Of a stretch of 33,148 nucleotides of DNA, positions 4,775 to 28,840 are shown piece by piece (position 1 is the stretch's first letter; each line of letters starts with the position of its first letter). The stretch is from Candidatus Thalassarchaeaceae archaeon (lineage in GTDB: Archaea; Thermoplasmatota; Poseidoniia; Poseidoniales; Thalassarchaeaceae). The position numbers were made by a program, and so were the translations under genes. Below the pieces are notes generated by a model. It did no database searches. It was not told the DNA's origin and saw nothing but the letters and a program-made list of their open reading frames with translations. Location: NCBI GenBank assembly GCA_030747675.1, contig JASLKH010000066.1, positions 1-33,148 of the forward strand, in the 5' to 3' direction.

Positions 4775-5385
4775 ACCTCAAACAGGACCCCCTCTTCGCC
4801 GAATTCATGCGTCCAACATCTTCTCTGATTTCAGAAGAAGGGATTAGGTTAATCCCTGCGGATCCTATTTGGCACGAATCAATCGTCGTGGCAATTAAAG
4901 AAAGTCAGCCTGATGTACGTCATGCATTGCCATGGTTTGAATGGAGTTCTCCGATAGATGTTCAAGTTTCAGAATATTTGGAAGAAGTGCAACGATTAGG
5001 AAGAGGTGGTCTATCACACCATTGGATTGTTGTTCATAGGGACACTTTTGTCGGGTTGATTGCATTGGATCATAGCCCACATTTAGTAATCGGCCATTGG
5101 AACCTAGGTTATTGGATACGTTCGGCATACCAGGGCCGTCGATTTGCCAGTTATGCCATTGATTCTGTCTTAACTTGGATTAGTGCAGCAGGGGGTGCCC
5201 CAACTGCAATTGAAATGCGAGTAGATCCATTGAATATTGCAGGAGTAGCCACTGCAATTTCAGCCGCACGAAGATGGAAAGGACACCGTTTTGAAGAAGG
5301 AGATGTCCATGTTGTGATTGGAGAGGAGTTTGTATTTCATTACTGTTGGTTGATTCCACGCTTACCTATTGAGGCATCGTCATGA
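4771..5385 (+). CDS. GNAT family (RimJ/RimL-type) N-acetyltransferase
   Basis: A 204-residue protein with the GNAT pattern. The N-terminal strand IRLIPADPIWHESIVVAI is like the 'L R p l ..D' opening of RimL-type enzymes. A central beta-hairpin (HHWIVVHRDTFVGLIALD) follows, then the acetyl-CoA-binding motif A region GYWIRSAYQGRRFASYAI, where QGRRFA replaces the usual Q/RGxGxA loop. The family transfers acetyl from acetyl-CoA to amino groups of proteins or small molecules; the substrate is not predictable here. The GTG at 4771 overlaps the previous stop in a GTGA arrangement; an internal ATG at 4807 is a shorter alternative. The stop overlaps the next ATG at 5382 (ATGA), so this gene sits in the middle of a three-gene coupled operon. 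Confidence 0.82.
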   Translation: MNLKQDPLFAEFMRPTSSLISEEGIRLIPADPIWHESIVVAIKESQPDVRHALPWFEWSSPIDVQVSEYLEEVQRLGRGGLSHHWIVVHRDTFVGLIALDHSPHLVIGHWNLGYWIRSAYQGRRFASYAIDSVLTWISAAGGAPTAIEMRVDPLNIAGVATAISAARRWKGHRFEEGDVHVVIGEEFVFHYCWLIPRLPIEASS

Positions 5386-6152
5386 ATTACTGGCTTAGTG
5401 TTGATACGGATGACATTTGTCATTTACCATCCAACCGGGGGCATCCAACACGTTCTTCTAATCCAATGGAGTTCTGGAAAACAGATGGATATCAGGCTTC
5501 TAAACAACTCCTGAAATGCACTGATTCATTCATGAATTGGGCATCAAATGGCCCTGACGTGACTATATTTTTAATTGCTGAACAATTGGATTGCCCAGCA
5601 TTTTATTCTAAGATGAAATCACTTCTTGATTTTCCAAATATCACGATAGCATGCCACGGGTGGGGACATAGATGTTGGTCTGCATGGCCGAAAGAAATTT
5701 CTGATTTTTCAGATATGCTAATTGCTGCAAAAAACCGTCTTTCAAAATTCGCCGGCCCCTCGTGGCGCCCATGGTTTCGAGCTCCGGGTGGATATGTATC
5801 TCAATGGATGGCGGCCCCTCTTGCTGCTGCCGGATTTAGTATAGACTCTTCTGTCAACCCCTCAAAATGGGTTGCTCGAAAGATGAATGGAAATTGGAAA
5901 AAAGTCATCACATCTATGAACAATTCAGGACTTAAAGAAAGACCGTGGCTGGTTTCAAAAATTGGACCAGCCTGTGGTCCAGCATTGAGTTTGTTTCCAT
6001 TTTCATTATTCGCAAAGAGGGCATGGAGTAATGCATCTAAAGGAAATACAGTTAATCCGGAAAATGAAGAAGTAAATACGCTATATTGGCATATACTTGA
6101 CCATGGTCGGAAAGCTGGAAAGTGGGAGCCACCATTATCTAAAGAGAAGTGA
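5382..6152 (+). CDS. Polysaccharide deacetylase (NodB homology, CE4-like)
   Basis: The 256-residue protein shows the CE4/NodB motif set. Asp residues in SVDTDD (D8-D11) match the catalytic base and metal ligand. HGWGHR supplies the metal-binding His pair (H92, H96). WFRAPGGY (about 131-138) is the motif 3 Arg-Pro-Gly loop. WHILDHGRKAG near the C-terminus carries the motif 5 His. Family members remove N- or O-acetyl groups from polysaccharides; the real substrate could be a surface glycan or glycoprotein sugar. No signal peptide is visible, suggesting a cytoplasmic enzyme acting on a precursor. It starts at an ATGA overlap with the acetyltransferase gene. Pairing an acetyltransferase with a deacetylase suggests sugar modification, which is inference. 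Its 3' end overlaps the convergent pyruvate dehydrogenase gene by 14 bp. Confidence 0.85.
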   Translation: MNYWLSVDTDDICHLPSNRGHPTRSSNPMEFWKTDGYQASKQLLKCTDSFMNWASNGPDVTIFLIAEQLDCPAFYSKMKSLLDFPNITIACHGWGHRCWSAWPKEISDFSDMLIAAKNRLSKFAGPSWRPWFRAPGGYVSQWMAAPLAAAGFSIDSSVNPSKWVARKMNGNWKKVITSMNNSGLKERPWLVSKIGPACGPALSLFPFSLFAKRAWSNASKGNTVNPENEEVNTLYWHILDHGRKAGKWEPPLSKEK

Positions 6153-22546: not shown

Positions 22547-24151
22547 CTAATGTTCGTGTTCGTCATGATTTGAATACTCGTCGCACCATGCTTGCTTCTC
22601 ATCTGACCACACTTCATCTGTCATGCAGTCGTACCACACCTCAGTCTCTTCTTCAAGAAGATATTCCAAGTCTTCGATAAAATCGGATGTGTCCCAGTCC
22701 GAACCAGTGTAGACAATCCGTTTGTGCCCATTTTTGTCAATAATGAATGTTACAGTATTATGTCCTACTTCGTAAACCTCGTCATCACCCATATTCATTC
22801 CGTGCTCACCATGATGGTTGTCCATTCCAACACTGCTTTGAGAATCATCTGTGCCCGGTGGTGCTTGATTTTGAACCCACATATGAGAGTTACAATAATT
22901 TTCATTTTCTATTAACATTGTATGGGTATGCATATTGTAACATCCCGTAAACACAGTTGCACCATAATTGATGTAATAATTGAATGCATCACATTCAGAT
23001 TGTGACATATTCGAATTTGGTATATGTGTACCACTATTATAGCAACCAGTGAATGATGATCCATCCTGCATAGTATGGTTCTCCAAATACATATACGATT
23101 CACAATTGGTTTCGTTATCATTAGATACTGAATGTGAGGCCATATTGTAACAGATATCTTGTCCATCATTCATCGTGTAATTTTCAAAATATGAATAGGA
23201 TTCACATGCTATTTGTTGACTGTCTTCAGTCAAGGCATGTGTATCCATATTGTAACAGACCATATTGCTATCTGGTGTTGGTAGATATGTGATGTTTGCA
23301 TTTGATGCAACCCAAGCAATGTGATCAGTGTCTTGCATGACAATGATATCATCTGCCCCTTTGTCGGGGTCATAATCCCAAGATGAATTAGTTTCATTCC
23401 AATAGTATAGGTTCCACCACCACGAGGAGTCACTTGGTGTAACATAGTTGTCAATCCCTGTTAACATATTTCCGCAGCATTCGTATGCAGTTGAATTTAT
23501 TGAGATATTATTCATCATCATCGTGCTTGTGGTTAGGTTCCATCCAGTAGGATTTTCCTCTGGTAACATATCATGATGCCCATCTAGTAACGCCGTTGTG
23601 CTGTCAGGATAGAGCACTGCAACTTGATGTAGCATTACAGAATGATTCTGATGCTCATCATGATTTGAGTGATCAGAATTGATGTGGTCATTATCAACAA
23701 GTAGGTTGTAGTTGTCCCAAACTCCAGTACGATTATCATTAGTGAAGTCTGAAGAATTATCACTAGTAAGGTGTGGCCAAGTGTAACCTCGTGCTTCAGT
23801 CCATTCAAGCAAATTCTCAGGTGTATCCCTTGCTGGGTCAATAGTAATTGATAAGATGACCAAATCTTCTTCTTCTCCCAATTCATTGTGCACTGTTTTC
23901 AAATTTGCTTCAATAGCTAAGCAAACATCGGGGCAGTGTGTATATGTGAAAGCAATAACTACAACTTTCCCATCAAAATCAGAGAGTGAAATAACTTGCC
24001 CGTCTTGAGAATAGAGAACAAAATCTGGCGCATTGGATGCAGGGTTGTATTCCATTCCATTGAAATCGTAATCATCCTTGTTAGATCCATTGCCAAGACA
24101 TCCAGAGAGTGCAATTAAAAAAGTCATCAAGAATGCTACTTTCTTGCTCAT
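22547..24151 (-). CDS. Sco1/SenC-like copper chaperone lipoprotein with large Cys/His/Met-repeat insertion
   Basis: The 534-residue protein (from ATG 24151) begins with a lipoprotein signal (FLMTFLIALSGC). The thioredoxin-fold Sco domain follows: NAPDFVLYSQDGQVISLSDF, then FTYTHCPDVC with the CxxxC copper motif, SITIDPARDTPENL and WPHLTSDNSSDF. The closing strand and copper-ligand His appear to be VGHNTVTFIIDKNGHKRIVY near the C-terminus. About 290 residues are inserted between these parts. The insertion has a His/Asp-rich run (HINSDHSNHDEHQNH), a CC motif, a Trp-rich patch, and four repeats of ~35 residues starting CYNM or CYNS. The C-terminus adds YDCMTDE...WCDEYSNHDEHEH. Sco proteins deliver copper to the CuA site of oxidase subunit II, and the cox genes lie just upstream. 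ATG 24169 is an alternative start; a TATA box 26 nt before 24151 supports the shorter form. Confidence 0.88.
   Translation of the reverse strand: MSKKVAFLMTFLIALSGCLGNGSNKDDYDFNGMEYNPASNAPDFVLYSQDGQVISLSDFDGKVVVIAFTYTHCPDVCLAIEANLKTVHNELGEEEDLVILSITIDPARDTPENLLEWTEARGYTWPHLTSDNSSDFTNDNRTGVWDNYNLLVDNDHINSDHSNHDEHQNHSVMLHQVAVLYPDSTTALLDGHHDMLPEENPTGWNLTTSTMMMNNISINSTAYECCGNMLTGIDNYVTPSDSSWWWNLYYWNETNSSWDYDPDKGADDIIVMQDTDHIAWVASNANITYLPTPDSNMVCYNMDTHALTEDSQQIACESYSYFENYTMNDGQDICYNMASHSVSNDNETNCESYMYLENHTMQDGSSFTGCYNSGTHIPNSNMSQSECDAFNYYINYGATVFTGCYNMHTHTMLIENENYCNSHMWVQNQAPPGTDDSQSSVGMDNHHGEHGMNMGDDEVYEVGHNTVTFIIDKNGHKRIVYTGSDWDTSDFIEDLEYLLEEETEVWYDCMTDEVWSDEKQAWCDEYSNHDEHEH
22870..23257 (-). 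repeat. Four ~105-bp in-frame repeats encoding CYNM-type Cys/His units
   Basis: The 12-mer catattgtaaca (minus strand: Cys-Tyr-Asn-Met) occurs exactly at 22931, 23141 and 23246, and a diverged copy (CYNS) lies near 23034. In protein, successive first Cys residues are 35, 36 and 34 apart. The unit consensus is C-Y-N-[MS]-x-[TS]-H, then ~9-10 residues, then C-[ED/N]-[SA], an aromatic-rich patch, and Asn. Each unit has two Cys and at least one His. Confidence 0.85.
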
Positions 24152-24173
24152 ATTACCATCTCGCAACATTATG

Positions 24174-24208: not shown

Positions 24209-24294
24209 TGGCGCGGACGGAGAGATTTGAACTCCCGCGGTAAATTACCACCGGATTTCAAATCCGGCGCGATACCAGGCTATGCGACGTCCGC
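24209..24294 (-). tRNA. tRNA-Ser (anticodon UGA), CCA encoded
   Basis: The minus strand starts GCGGACG, which pairs perfectly with CGTCCGC at the 3' end. The anticodon arm is CCGGA-TTTGAAA-TCCGG, giving anticodon TGA (decodes UCA). A long variable arm (GGTAA-TT-TACC region) is typical of tRNA-Ser. The T-arm is GGGAG-TTCAAAT-CTCTC. The discriminator is G, and CCA is encoded at 24211-24209. CTTTTG follows as a short oligo-T terminator. The gene sits between the cox operon and the Sco-like gene. Confidence 0.94.
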
Positions 24295-24339: not shown

Positions 24340-24717
24340 TCAGTAGTAATTCCCGGGTCGACACCATGCAGGCAGTCCACCAGCAGCACCCGGGTGCGTT
24401 AAACCGATGAAGAGAACCATCACAATAATGAAAAAGACAGGAAATAAAGCGGTAGCAGTCAAAACCTGACTATCTGGGTCACCTTTAAGATGCATGAAAA
24501 TAGCTGCAATTCCATATCCCTTTACAATTCCAACAATGACTAAAATCCATACAACAGTAGTCATGCTAACAGTTCCTTTCATTGAGAAAGTTAGTGCAAC
24601 TGCAACGACTTCAATTGCTGTAAAAATCATCAGTATTGCAAAATTCATGTTGTACGCATCAAAGCCAAACAGTGTGTGGTGGTGTTCGTGTTCATCATGG
24701 TGTGTTTCTTCACTCAT
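24340..24717 (-). CDS. ctaF: Cytochrome c oxidase subunit IV (prokaryotic type)
   Basis: The 125-residue protein has a His-rich cytoplasmic N-terminus (THHDEHEHHH) and three TM helices, at ~26-46, 53-75 and 86-106. The second helix ends in GYGIAAIFMHLKGDP, equivalent to the 'K..lV..fFMHLk' signature of prokaryotic COX4/CyoD-type subunits. It is a small accessory subunit of the haem-copper oxidase. A clear Shine-Dalgarno sequence, GGAGG, lies 8 nt before the ATG and overlaps the end region of the subunit III gene. Unlike the first genes of transcripts in this window, this internal operon gene therefore uses a Shine-Dalgarno start. It is the last gene of the cox operon, followed by the tRNA-Ser. 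Confidence 0.85.
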   Translation of the reverse strand: MSEETHHDEHEHHHTLFGFDAYNMNFAILMIFTAIEVVAVALTFSMKGTVSMTTVVWILVIVGIVKGYGIAAIFMHLKGDPDSQVLTATALFPVFFIIVMVLFIGLTHPGAAGGLPAWCRPGNYY

Positions 24718-24730
24718 TTCTTCTTCCTCC

Positions 24731-25834
24731 CTAATACAAATAGAATGCTGGGAATACCAACACCCAAACTAAATCGACAAAGTGCCAATACAATCCAAAG
24801 TACTCGATACTAACTGCGTTTGCAGGTGTGTATCCCCCTTGGAACGCTTTGATTACCATATAGAATAGTGCCACCATTCCGCCAAAGACGTGAACTCCGT
24901 GGGTTCCAGTGGTCACGTAGAATGTAGAAGCAGACATTCTTACATCAACGATGTATGATTGCATCGCTCCTTCAGCACAATGATGCCCATCCCATTCAGA
25001 GCAGACTTGATATGTGTATTCGCTAGCATGTATGGTAAAACCATCTTCAAGTAAACTTGGAGAATAGAATAGAGGGTCATCGTGTGACCCAATCTCAAAC
25101 CCAATGAACCATTCCACCATCTTGAATATCAAGAATAATGTAGCCAATAGAAGTGTTGTTAGAAGGTACTTTCCAACTTTTCTACTGCGTTCCGCCTCAC
25201 TCAAACTCTTGTCTTTCGCAGTCTTAAGTGCTAGGACAATTGTAAATGATGAAATAATCAGTGCGAATGTATTGATTGCTCCAGGAATTAATGTATCAGG
25301 CATGAATCCCACAGCTGCATGGGCAGTTTCCTGATGCCAACCACCTTCTGCAATGAAGTAAGACGCAGGGAGCCAGCAGGGAGATCCCGGCTCAAATCCA
25401 GGTGTCCCTACAACTGATGCGCAACTGGGTATTCCAGAACGATATCGGATGTATGTGCTGAATAGGCTACTAAATACCATCATTTCAGACATTAGGAACA
25501 TCCAAAGTGCAATCTTACGAACATCGATATTACGGAATGGAACCCCCCTCGATTTGGCTTCATAGGAACCATCATGTCCCCAATCTTGTTTCCAGAATAT
25601 AATTATTCCAGCAAAGAAAATTGCTAGGCCAGTAATAAGTAGCCATACTTCACCCACATTGACCGCATATTCCCAAAAGCCATCTCCAGTATCATTCCAT
25701 GATTGTGTAAACACTTTTGCGAATCCAAGAAGGAAGATGCTTGAACCAAATGCCATCATAATAGGGGCCCATGAATTATGTGGTGTATGCCACCCATGAT
25801 GATCATCATGATGCTCGTTATTTCCGTAACTCAT
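24731..25834 (-). CDS. coxC: Cytochrome c oxidase subunit III
   Basis: A 367-residue membrane protein. Family landmarks are RKIALWMFLMSEMMVFSSLF, with the conserved Glu in the lipid-binding helix, TGTHGVHVFGGMVALFYM, and the ending YWHFVDLVWVLVFPAFYLY. Its His-rich N-terminus (NEHHDDHHGWHTPHN) resembles that of subunit IV. It is longer than the usual ~260-300 residues because of two exported loops with paired Cys (GIPSC...GSPC and VCSEWDGHHC). Subunit III stabilises the catalytic core and helps proton uptake. The ATG overlaps the stop of subunit I by 4 bp (ATGA), so translation is coupled. Confidence 0.93.
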   Translation of the reverse strand: MSYGNNEHHDDHHGWHTPHNSWAPIMMAFGSSIFLLGFAKVFTQSWNDTGDGFWEYAVNVGEVWLLITGLAIFFAGIIIFWKQDWGHDGSYEAKSRGVPFRNIDVRKIALWMFLMSEMMVFSSLFSTYIRYRSGIPSCASVVGTPGFEPGSPCWLPASYFIAEGGWHQETAHAAVGFMPDTLIPGAINTFALIISSFTIVLALKTAKDKSLSEAERSRKVGKYLLTTLLLATLFLIFKMVEWFIGFEIGSHDDPLFYSPSLLEDGFTIHASEYTYQVCSEWDGHHCAEGAMQSYIVDVRMSASTFYVTTGTHGVHVFGGMVALFYMVIKAFQGGYTPANAVSIEYFGLYWHFVDLVWVLVFPAFYLY

Positions 25835-28200
25835 TGTTCCACCTCGGTGTCATCTGGTACCATCATTCTTTCTAACATTCTACCAAACCAGCCAGGCTCT
25901 CCTTCATGCTCATGCAAACTCATGTCTAGTACAGGTGGGTTGTCAGGATCATGAGATGGAGTTGGAGGTGGACTTGAAGTCATCCATTCCATTGACCAGC
26001 CACCCCATGGGTTGTCTGGAGCTTTTGCTCCACGTAGTGAACTACTGAGCATATTGTAAACCAATATCAGATTGCTCGCAAAGAAACAGAACGCTGCAAT
26101 GGTAATCATCATGTTCCAATCTGCTGCTTCTGGTGGCAGTGCATCATACATATCTGTGGTGAGGAAGTATGTGTGCTGCCTTCGAGGCATACCCCATATT
26201 CCAAGACGATGCATTGGCCAAAAGATGAGATTGTATGAAATAAATCCAGTAACGAAGTGGATGATGCCCAATTTTTCATCTAACATTCTTCCAGTTGCTT
26301 TCGGGAACCAATAATATATTCCTGAATATATTCCGAACACAATACCTCCAACGAAAACATAGTGGAAGTGGGCGACTACGAAATAAGTTTCATGCAAATG
26401 TAAATCCATAGCAATGGAAGGGAAATACATTCCAGAGATTCCACCTAAGGTGAATGTTACTAAGAATCCTAAAGCCCACAAGGTATGTGTTCGATAGACT
26501 AAACTCCCACCATGCATCGTTTGTAGCCAGTTGAAGACCTTAATTCCGGTTGGAACTGCTACAAGCATAGTTGTCAGCATAGTGACGAATCGGAGTGTAG
26601 GGTCCATACCACTGGTGAACATGTGATGTCCATAAACGATGAAACCAAGAATACCAATACCTGCAAGAGCAAATACCATTGATTTGTATCCAAATACTGT
26701 CTTGCGAGCACTGGTAGAGATGACTTCTGAAATAATACCAAAAGCGGGAACAACAACAACATACACTTCTGGGTGACCAAAATACCAGAATAGATGACTC
26801 CAAAGTAGAGGGTCACCTCCACCGGCGACTTCGTAAAATGTAGTTCCTATTGTCCTATCAAGGAATACCTGAATTAGTCCAATTCCGAAAGCGGGAATTG
26901 AGATAAAGAGCATCAGAACAGAGATAAATATTGACCAACTGAATAGAGGCATTTGCATCCAACCCATACCCGGGGCTCGCATTGTGGCAAATGTAGTCAT
27001 GAAATTGACACCTGCTACGGTGGATGATGCTACTGCCAATATTTGTCCTGCAACCCACATAGTCGCTCCAGAGTGGGCTGTATTGGATACAATATAAGGT
27101 GCATATCCCGTCCACCCTGTATCTGCTGCTTGGCCTGAGAATATACCTGTGAAAATGAGGAGTGCCGCAGCGGGATTTAACCAGAATGCCAGTGCATTCA
27201 ATCTTGGAAGTGCTAAGTCATGCGCACCGATTTGTAGTGGTACAATCCAGTTTCCTAGACCTGCAATCATTGGCATAGCTGCAAGGAAAATCATGACAGT
27301 TCCATGCATTGTAAAGAATTGATTATACTCATCAGTAGTCAAGAAGTCATTTCCAGGGGTTGCTAATTGGATTCTAAAAATTAATGCAAATAATCCACCA
27401 ACACCAAGGAAAAATAAACCGTTAATGAAATACAAAGTTCCTACCTTTTTGTGATCGGTACTTGTCAACCAATCTGAAATCCAAGGCCAGAAATTGTCCC
27501 ATGTGAATGCATCAGGGTCCCGCCGGTAGAATACCCACAATAAGCATGATGACGTGATAACAACCATCAATAAAATAGCACTACCAAGGACAACTAAACC
27601 CCGTGCTTGTTCAATTGGTTGCTCTCCAATCGTGATGTCAATTTTGTTCCATTGATCCTCACCAGAAGCTTTGTGGTCACCATTTACTGAGTTGATGTGA
27701 AGAACAAACTTCACTCCACCTGAATCAGGCGCAGTCCATTCAACAGTCCAATTGGATTGATCATTTCCTGAATTTGTATCAGGAGTTGATGCGCCATTGT
27801 GTGTCAAACTACCATCAGGATTCATTTTAACCAGGTTTGAGTCAAGGATTGCAAAAGTTCCCGCACTTGCCCATAGATTGAAACCTGCTACAGCACTGGG
27901 TTCTGCAACAGTATCTGCACGTGAGTCAGTGAATGATATATCGAGAGTGTAAGTTTCACTTGCATTGAAGTAGATATTGCCAGAAGCATCAACAGGCAGC
28001 CCTTCTAAACTTGGTGCAACATCATCACTAGCTGAGGTGCTGTGACAATAACAGCCAGCATCTTTGATGGATTGATAAGGAATCCCAGTTGGTGAAGAAA
28101 ATGCATTAGGTGCAATTGCTATAGCAAAAAGTAAAACCCCAATAATTGCAATTGTGCGCGGTTTTTTCAAAGACTTAAACATCATTTCCACCTCAAGCAT
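25831..28200 (-). CDS. coxA: Cytochrome c oxidase subunit I (type A1) with N-terminal CxCH beta-domain fusion
   Basis: The 789-residue protein has two parts. Residues ~240-790 are a complete A1-type haem-copper oxidase. Haem a ligands are H299 and H613, and the haem a3 ligand is H611. CuB ligands are H476, H525 and H526. The catalytic GHPEVY carries E478 and the cross-linking Y480, and the K-channel Lys is in FGYKSM (K506). The first ~200 residues are an extra exported domain: a signal/TM segment (IAIIGVLLFAIAIAPNAFS), then DAGCYCHS (C50-Y-C-H53), then a beta-sandwich with AGFNLWASAGTF, SLTHNG and WTVEWTAPDSGGVKF. This matches Reeler-like 'choice-of-anchor V' domains. A TM helix (~200-225) links it to the oxidase. 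The ATG overlaps subunit II by 8 bp; a later start (M6/M7) is possible, with GAGGTGG upstream. Confidence 0.95.
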   Translation of the reverse strand: MLEVEMMFKSLKKPRTIAIIGVLLFAIAIAPNAFSSPTGIPYQSIKDAGCYCHSTSASDDVAPSLEGLPVDASGNIYFNASETYTLDISFTDSRADTVAEPSAVAGFNLWASAGTFAILDSNLVKMNPDGSLTHNGASTPDTNSGNDQSNWTVEWTAPDSGGVKFVLHINSVNGDHKASGEDQWNKIDITIGEQPIEQARGLVVLGSAILLMVVITSSCLLWVFYRRDPDAFTWDNFWPWISDWLTSTDHKKVGTLYFINGLFFLGVGGLFALIFRIQLATPGNDFLTTDEYNQFFTMHGTVMIFLAAMPMIAGLGNWIVPLQIGAHDLALPRLNALAFWLNPAAALLIFTGIFSGQAADTGWTGYAPYIVSNTAHSGATMWVAGQILAVASSTVAGVNFMTTFATMRAPGMGWMQMPLFSWSIFISVLMLFISIPAFGIGLIQVFLDRTIGTTFYEVAGGGDPLLWSHLFWYFGHPEVYVVVVPAFGIISEVISTSARKTVFGYKSMVFALAGIGILGFIVYGHHMFTSGMDPTLRFVTMLTTMLVAVPTGIKVFNWLQTMHGGSLVYRTHTLWALGFLVTFTLGGISGMYFPSIAMDLHLHETYFVVAHFHYVFVGGIVFGIYSGIYYWFPKATGRMLDEKLGIIHFVTGFISYNLIFWPMHRLGIWGMPRRQHTYFLTTDMYDALPPEAADWNMMITIAAFCFFASNLILVYNMLSSSLRGAKAPDNPWGGWSMEWMTSSPPPTPSHDPDNPPVLDMSLHEHEGEPGWFGRMLERMMVPDDTEVEQ

Positions 28201-28840
28201 GTACCTCTATAATTGCGGTCATGTACCCATGGTCATCTCCACAGTATTCTGCACAGTAAAGTAAGTTTGTTCCGATTTCATCAGTGCTGGGGGTGTAATA
28301 CATTCGAGTCTCTTGCCCAGGTAGAGCATCTTCTTTAATACCCCAATCAACAAAGAAAGGTGAGTGTGTCACATCTTCAGAGTATAGTATGAACGTATAG
28401 GATTCCCCCGCCTTTAAACTTAGAATCACGTTTGATCTTCCTTCTACATCCATGGTTTGACTACTATCACAAATGTCAGTGTTATTTACTTCTGAACAGT
28501 CAAAACTCCAACTCCATTGGGAAGCAGTAATTGTGACAATATGTGCATCTTCATCCTCAGTCCATATTTCATCAAGAGGACCCCATGAAATGAATGTGAG
28601 ATAAACAATGAGAATGAATGGGACAACAGTCCAAGTGACTTCCAATTTCAAATCGTCATTTTCAACAGGAAATACCCCTGGAGTCAGGTTGTCAATATTG
28701 TTATCCGAACCATCCTTAGAGCGGTATTTTAAGGAGTGATGAAACAACCATGAAAATGTGAAAATACCGACTAAAATAGCCCATAGCGTGAATTCATCAA
28801 ATAGGTCATTGAAGATGTCGCCTCCTGCCTTCATTACCAT
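28193..28840 (-). CDS. coxB: Cytochrome c oxidase subunit II with CuA site
   Basis: A 215-residue protein with two N-terminal TM helices (~16-36, 66-86) and an exported cupredoxin domain. All CuA ligands are present: H159 (DVTHSPF), then C196, C200, H204 and M207 in YCAEYCGDDHGYM. The aromatic electron-entry region is ASQWSWSF. It accepts electrons from a soluble or membrane donor and passes them to subunit I. An unusual Cys pair (C115, C124) lies in an insertion right after WSF and could form a disulfide near the entry site. This is the first gene of the coxBACD operon. A TATA box about 30 nt before ATG 28840 supports that start; ATG 28834 is the alternative. Confidence 0.95.
   Translation of the reverse strand: MVMKAGGDIFNDLFDEFTLWAILVGIFTFSWLFHHSLKYRSKDGSDNNIDNLTPGVFPVENDDLKLEVTWTVVPFILIVYLTFISWGPLDEIWTEDEDAHIVTITASQWSWSFDCSEVNNTDICDSSQTMDVEGRSNVILSLKAGESYTFILYSEDVTHSPFFVDWGIKEDALPGQETRMYYTPSTDEIGTNLLYCAEYCGDDHGYMTAIIEVHA

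Follow-up and report, generated by a model that had tools for sequence, protein, structure and literature searches.

A putative Sco copper chaperone of a marine Group II archaeon with a composite insertion whose modules recur in iron, zinc and copper proteins

Introduction

How does a Sco-type copper chaperone come to carry about 280 additional residues immediately before its candidate copper-ligand histidine, and what might such an insertion do? The question is raised by a gene in a 33,148-nucleotide stretch of DNA from a Candidatus Thalassarchaeaceae archaeon (contig JASLKH010000066.1, positions 1 to 33,148), referred to here as the window. Marine Group II archaea abound in surface seawater, an environment poor in Fe, Zn and Cu, and to our knowledge their uptake and handover of these metals have been little described. 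An earlier, sequence-only reading of the window placed the gene in the Poseidoniales and recognized in its product a Sco copper chaperone that adjoins cox genes and has an unusual insertion, which it took for a built-in copper store or sensor, or for a set of disulfide-knotted adhesion units.

Results

The open reading frame, 22547..24169(-), encodes 540 aa if the first ATG is used. An alternative start at 24151 gives a 534-aa protein (22547..24151(-)) that has a lipobox (LSGC18) and is a better fit to the orthologues, and residues are numbered throughout in this form. The protein was identified as a Sco/SenC lipoprotein by orthologue matches in genus genomes and by Pfam family PF02630 (SCO1-SenC; residues 42-129, E=1.3e-21, 77.4 bits against a curated cut-off of 22.8). 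Its signal peptide and lipobox occupy residues 1-18 (24098..24151(-)), with G17-C18 invariant in alignments. The N-terminal part of the Sco domain, residues 30-152 (23696..24064(-)), is supported by Pfam, structure matches, alignment and model and contains the CPDVC motif at residues 73-77 (23921-23935(-)). The C-terminal part, placed by alignment at residues 458-503 (22643..22780(-)), contains the closing strand VGH464NTVTFIID (residues 462-472) and with it the candidate copper ligand H464. C73, C77 and H464 are invariant or almost so in the alignments. Both the AF2 model and Foldseek indicate a thioredoxin fold, and the solved structures nearest to the protein are Sco structures, which rank first at E about 1e-7.

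The gene is followed, in the direction of increasing coordinates, by a tRNA-Ser (tga) gene at 24209..24294(-) and then by cox4, cox3, an N-terminally extended cox1, and cox2 (24340..28840(-)), putative names that we assigned by reading the sequences. In cox1 (25831-28200(-)) the N-terminal extension is ~200 residues long, has a CYCH motif and resembles a separate extracytoplasmic domain. The order cox2-cox1-cox3-cox4-Sco is kept in sister genomes. The view of the protein as a Sco chaperone beside cox thus holds, and its Poseidoniales origin is likewise borne out. From its membership in the Sco family and the conserved gene order we infer that the protein delivers copper to the oxidase: C73, C77 and H464 would hold the metal and pass it to CuA of cytochrome oxidase subunit II.

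Long and ordinary Sco proteins coexist in these archaea. The source genome encodes a second, ordinary Sco of 222 aa (L024), and in most Poseidoniales genomes at least two Sco matches are found, commonly one short and one long. A search with the protein found a match in 17 of 17 genus genomes, the best one listed being an ordinary short Sco in at least one of them (G003), and the long orthologues with complete open frames are about 365 to 445 aa in length.

From W145 to H464 the window Sco spans 319 residues as against 39 in L024, an excess of about 280. The insertion is real, if a little below the ~290 residues first claimed for it, and it sits immediately before H464. It is enriched in Cys, His and Met relative to the Sco core and is composite, made up of a variable His-rich linker, a ~120-aa domain and four repeats that we call CYN repeats. 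The sequence-only reading had described all of it as Cys/His/Met repeats; the repeats are there, and ~120 of the residues that it had not set apart from them form a conserved domain. The possibility that the whole insertion is one novel domain was ruled out by the orthologue alignments, the repeat counts and the structure model. The first linker (residues 156-175, HINSDHSNHDEHQNHSVMLH; 23627..23686(-)) corresponds to a His/Asp-rich stretch of variable length in the orthologues, and the long genus orthologues, wherever they cover the region, have a His-rich linker of this kind followed by the ~120-residue domain. A second, His/Met-rich linker (residues 433-457; 22781..22855(-)) is His-rich in the orthologues too. 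A CC pair previously listed beside the repeats is present (C225-C226), lies in the ~120-residue domain outside them, and is absent from the aligned genus orthologues. The degenerate Cys pair and His tail noted at the C terminus also exist, the pair (C509/C523) being private to the window Sco and the tail common to the orthologues.

The same site is occupied in other Sco proteins of the class Poseidoniia by beta-grasp, CYN, EGF-like or second thioredoxin modules, for which reason the loop before the copper-ligand His is an insertion hot spot in this class. Sco proteins of other genera have a beta-grasp domain followed by an EGF-like Cys module in place of the CYN repeats. In Marine Group III there are Sco proteins, 471-491 aa long (L098-L100, L102, L103), with an EGF-like stretch inserted there, and a second thioredoxin domain is found at this site by Pfam in L102. 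The long Sco proteins of a second Poseidoniales family, f2 (L179-L182), contain two tandem beta-grasp domains within the insertion.

The conserved domain, residues 172-292 (23276..23638(-)), is a transcobalamin-like (SLBB/DUF4430-like) beta-grasp domain by AF2 and Foldseek, modelled at a pLDDT of about 90 whether taken alone or within the full protein. Foldseek gives as its best matches 3u7z, described in its entry as a 'putative metal binding protein' (E=2.3e-4; TM-score, by target, 0.75), and 5no0, human transcobalamin, in its beta domain (E=2.4e-4). The transcobalamin-like clade of the SLBB superfamily is defined by a beta-grasp fold with a beta-hairpin insert after the helix (PMC1796856), and the order of elements in the model, with its hairpin after the helix, agrees with that definition. 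The domain thus shares with the clade (PF14478; 5no0, 3u7z) the beta-beta-alpha arrangement, the hairpin after the helix, the further strands and an extracytoplasmic location, and differs in being set inside Sco and ZnuA proteins. We call it DUF4430-like because the DUF4430 model (PF14478) was reached only below threshold, in 2 of 16 members, with a best E=0.015 among the relatives. A lipoprotein aligned by the same beta-grasp profile passes PF14478. Small lipoproteins of 163-165 aa from the window's own family (L304-L306) contain a DUF4430-type domain (PF14478 at 2.3e-8 in L304).

The beta-grasp domain is present in every genus orthologue that covers the region, in long Sco proteins across the Poseidoniales, and, at the level of the order, in 157 of 194 genomes. 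The strong matches that we examined lie in ZnuA-type proteins and in long Sco proteins, the latter carrying the domain once or twice; weaker relatives outside the class are mostly beta-propeller proteins among those examined. With haptocorrin and intrinsic factor joining transcobalamin among the fold matches, the domain might bind a corrinoid or another cofactor, and the inserted region would then connect Sco or ZnuA with a scavenged ligand that has nothing to do with delivering copper. Soluble-ligand binding has indeed been predicted for the SLBB superfamily, and a distinct metabolite suggested for archaea (PMC1796856). We consider this unlikely, however, given that the Sco and ZnuA hosts are metal proteins and that the structural alignment with transcobalamin shows no more than 12-13% identity.

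The CYN motifs of the four repeats lie at residues 299, 334, 370 and 404, with the spacings of 35, 36 and 34 residues originally reported, and each of the four has, as was also claimed, two Cys and a His in the context CYNxxxH: C299/C316 and H305 in repeat 1 (23159..23263(-)), C334/C350 and H340 in repeat 2 (23051..23158(-)), C370/C387 and H376 in repeat 3 (22949..23050(-)), and C404/C420 and H410 in repeat 4 (22856..22948(-)), all recognized by sequence and carrier comparison. The consensus unit reads x-x-C-Y-N-x-x-(S/T)-H, about ten residues, then C-x-(A/S)-(Y/F)-x-(W/Y). A chance or low-complexity origin was ruled out, since in 20,000 shuffled versions of the region the motif appeared at most once, never four times, and related units occur in many genomes. 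An assembly artefact is unlikely, the four units differing from each other and the gene order matching that of sister genomes. The array has no Pfam match at E 10 and no NCBIfam match at E 0.1, and hence no known repeat family was found in either collection. Phage origin was likewise ruled out, as neither phage records nor viral contigs gave a match to the repeat.

The window array, used as query, detected the CYN repeat in 123 of the order's 194 genomes. When 293 genomes from across the phylum were searched with a single-unit profile, 55 were positive, all of them from the class Poseidoniia, to which, within this sample, the repeat is confined; three of the 55 are of a third family, f3, which we read as the family to which Marine Group III belongs. 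Among 12 genus orthologues that cover the region, eight have no CYN repeat and four have one (L002-L005), compared with four repeats in the window Sco. Because most genus orthologues are without them, the repeats are not required for Sco function.

Within a unit, the distance between the two Cys is mostly 16-17 residues. Every listed unit that has the first Cys also has the second by inspection; an automated count of pairs, made with a narrow pattern, missed some. Both Cys are absent from five Fea1 units of one genus, which retain YNxx(S/T)H and are probably the product of a single event. About 92% of units keep the His that follows CYNxx(S/T), among them those that lack both Cys. This joint retention or loss of the two Cys suggests a disulfide within each CYN unit, in keeping with the disulfide half of the original alternative, and would make a free-thiol copper store unlikely. 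In both structure models the repeats are mostly at pLDDT below 50.

Metallothionein-like and copper storage (Csp) proteins are Cys-containing and have a copper context, as the window Sco does. In contrast to them, the window repeats have their Cys in widely spaced pairs, with no Cys clusters or CxC array. The proposal that the insertion is a built-in Cu(I) store or sensor, with the eight repeat Cys as free thiolate ligands, draws on its enrichment in Cys, His and Met and on its host, a copper chaperone adjoining cox. We nevertheless judge it very improbable: the clustered Cys (CxC, CxxC) expected of a Cu(I)-thiolate store are absent, the Cys occur in pairs, most genus orthologues are without repeats, and, as described below, most carriers of the repeat are not Sco at all but proteins of iron, zinc or cupredoxin type.

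We classified the ORFs around the matches examined with their repeats masked, which gave 127 non-redundant carriers. Five metal-handling families (fasciclin-cupredoxin, Fea1, ZnuA, transferrin-like and Sco) account for 118 of the 127, a descriptive figure rather than an unbiased rate, the carriers having been partly hand-picked from ranked matches. The counts are 47 fasciclin (one of them, L246, assigned by eye), 31 Fea1, 24 ZnuA, 11 transferrin-like, 5 Sco and 9 others, the last including the acidic L065, L269 and L270, which were moved there by hand from ZnuA as lacking ZnuA motifs. Family searches support the Fea1, ZnuA, cupredoxin and transferrin classes, and the cupredoxin motif CxPHx(3-5)M is found in 37 of 39 long fasciclin carriers. 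The nine others are large proteins, namely EF-hand, LDL-A, type-3-like and pilin-containing ones. At the level of families the tally is five metal families against several others, and the host bias to metal handling is strong, not exclusive. The idea of a repeat that always accompanies cox or copper proteins is contradicted by the iron (Fea1, transferrin-like), zinc-type (ZnuA) and fasciclin-cupredoxin hosts that predominate; with Sco only 5 of the 127, a copper-specific or cox-linked repeat was ruled out.

Fea1 proteins (FEA1-related lipoprotein; PF07692, NF038033) are a low-iron periplasmic family concerned with iron assimilation and unrelated to Sco, with which they share the repeat, in 1-8 copies. 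Examples from the Poseidoniales (L040-L043, L202) have 2-8 CYN repeats, with NF038033 at E=1.1e-117 for L040. The ZnuA carriers, zinc/manganese ABC substrate-binding proteins (PF01297), resemble the window Sco in their inserted His/Asp-rich stretches, beta-grasp domain and CYN-type repeats and differ from it in their unrelated fold and additional EF-hands, and they are often 600-1100 aa long instead of about 300. In the set examined (L031, L032, L033, L165-L178) the His/Asp-rich stretches occur together with the beta-grasp domain, CYN-type repeats are present in many, and Pfam detects EF-hands in L031, whose gene adjoins znuBC-like genes and one for a COG0523-like GTPase.

On contig C82 of genome G000 (L039, about 5016-6102; L038, 1366-2451; both (-)), PhnC/PhnE-like ABC genes accompany the gene of a 362-aa lipoprotein that matches Transferrin (PF00405, E=1.1e-25) and also the phosphonate-binding family PF12974. 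By eye, comparison with lactoferrin and melanotransferrin shows the Asp, both Tyr and the CHTG..SAG anion motif to be kept, and the protein is possibly an archaeal transferrin with its own transporter. After the transferrin match, the PhnD-like host was dropped as an example of a non-metal protein. Two-lobe transferrin-like versions are about 700 aa in length, some adjoining Fea1 (L215, L216, L191). In the literature covered, which included few subscription papers, we found no description of an archaeal Fea1 or transferrin.

A serious rival account sees in the repeats simple spacers or protein-contact units, closed by disulfides and possibly glycosylated, that play no role in metal chemistry, the metal hosts being simply protruding lipoproteins that recombine. 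It fits the shared fate of the Cys pair, the range of 0 to 8 repeats per protein within host families, the nine carriers of other kinds, the Asn-rich array with its several N-x-S/T sequons, and the EGF-like Cys module that other genera have at the same place in Sco. Those nine carriers also make the adhesion proposed for the repeats conceivable, an idea of which the paired Cys favour the disulfide part. The concentration of the repeat in five unrelated metal-handling families and the retention of its His, even in Cys-less units, count against plain spacers. We give this account a real though minority chance of being correct.

Compared with all other carriers, the window units suggest a mixed ancestry. 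Unit 3 scores 149 against a Fea1 unit and 85 against the next host class, and unit 2 scores 123 against Fea1 and 76 against Sco, so that Fea1 holds the best match to both. The first 22 and last 32 residues of the array score best against the single repeat of sister Sco proteins, while units 1 and 4, taken whole, have their best score outside Sco. The simplest account, for which these short per-unit alignments are suggestive only, is that a Fea1-type repeat block recombined into a single Sco repeat to give the four-repeat array.

Discussion

We propose that the window protein, from a marine Group II archaeon, is a Sco copper metallochaperone linked to the oxidase and anchored to the membrane as a lipoprotein, and that an accessory arm has been built in this lineage into the loop just before H464. 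The arm would consist of the His-rich linker and the transcobalamin-like beta-grasp domain and, in some species, of disulfide-closed CYN repeats as well. It may act upstream of the metal site, either by capturing a metal or a metal-ligand complex or by docking to a partner that its hosts have in common on the cell surface. We favour capture or docking for the arm since proteins that handle Fe, Zn or Cu contain the same modules: the beta-grasp domain and the repeats in ZnuA, and the repeats alone in Fea1, transferrin-like and cupredoxin proteins. The best explanation that we can offer is a Sco whose accessory arm is common to metal-uptake proteins, its disulfides and function being predicted from sequence comparison, and taken as a whole we give it about an even chance.

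In comparison with Sco1/SenC/PrrC (PF02630; 4hde, 4wbj, 6n5u), the window protein has the same thioredoxin-fold core, CxxxC, distal His, lipid anchor and cox neighbour, and is distinguished by the long stretch before the His, by the separable modules that compose it and by the ordinary Sco encoded alongside it in the genome. What is new here is an undescribed CYN repeat together with a variant of a known chaperone; in the literature within our scope, which took in few subscription papers, no description was found of the repeat or of a Sco with such an insertion.

A broader and rather doubtful extension is that a single interchangeable Poseidoniia module, the CYN repeat with or without the beta-grasp domain and a His-rich stretch, gives unrelated extracytoplasmic proteins for Fe, Zn and Cu a common interface for capture or docking. 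If this were true, copper delivery to the oxidase and the uptake of Fe and Zn would share one surface system. The CYN repeat marks candidate metal proteins in metagenomes and, as a small unit, is suited to binding and docking tests, and the window Sco indicates that a conserved chaperone can accept large modular insertions next to its metal ligand.
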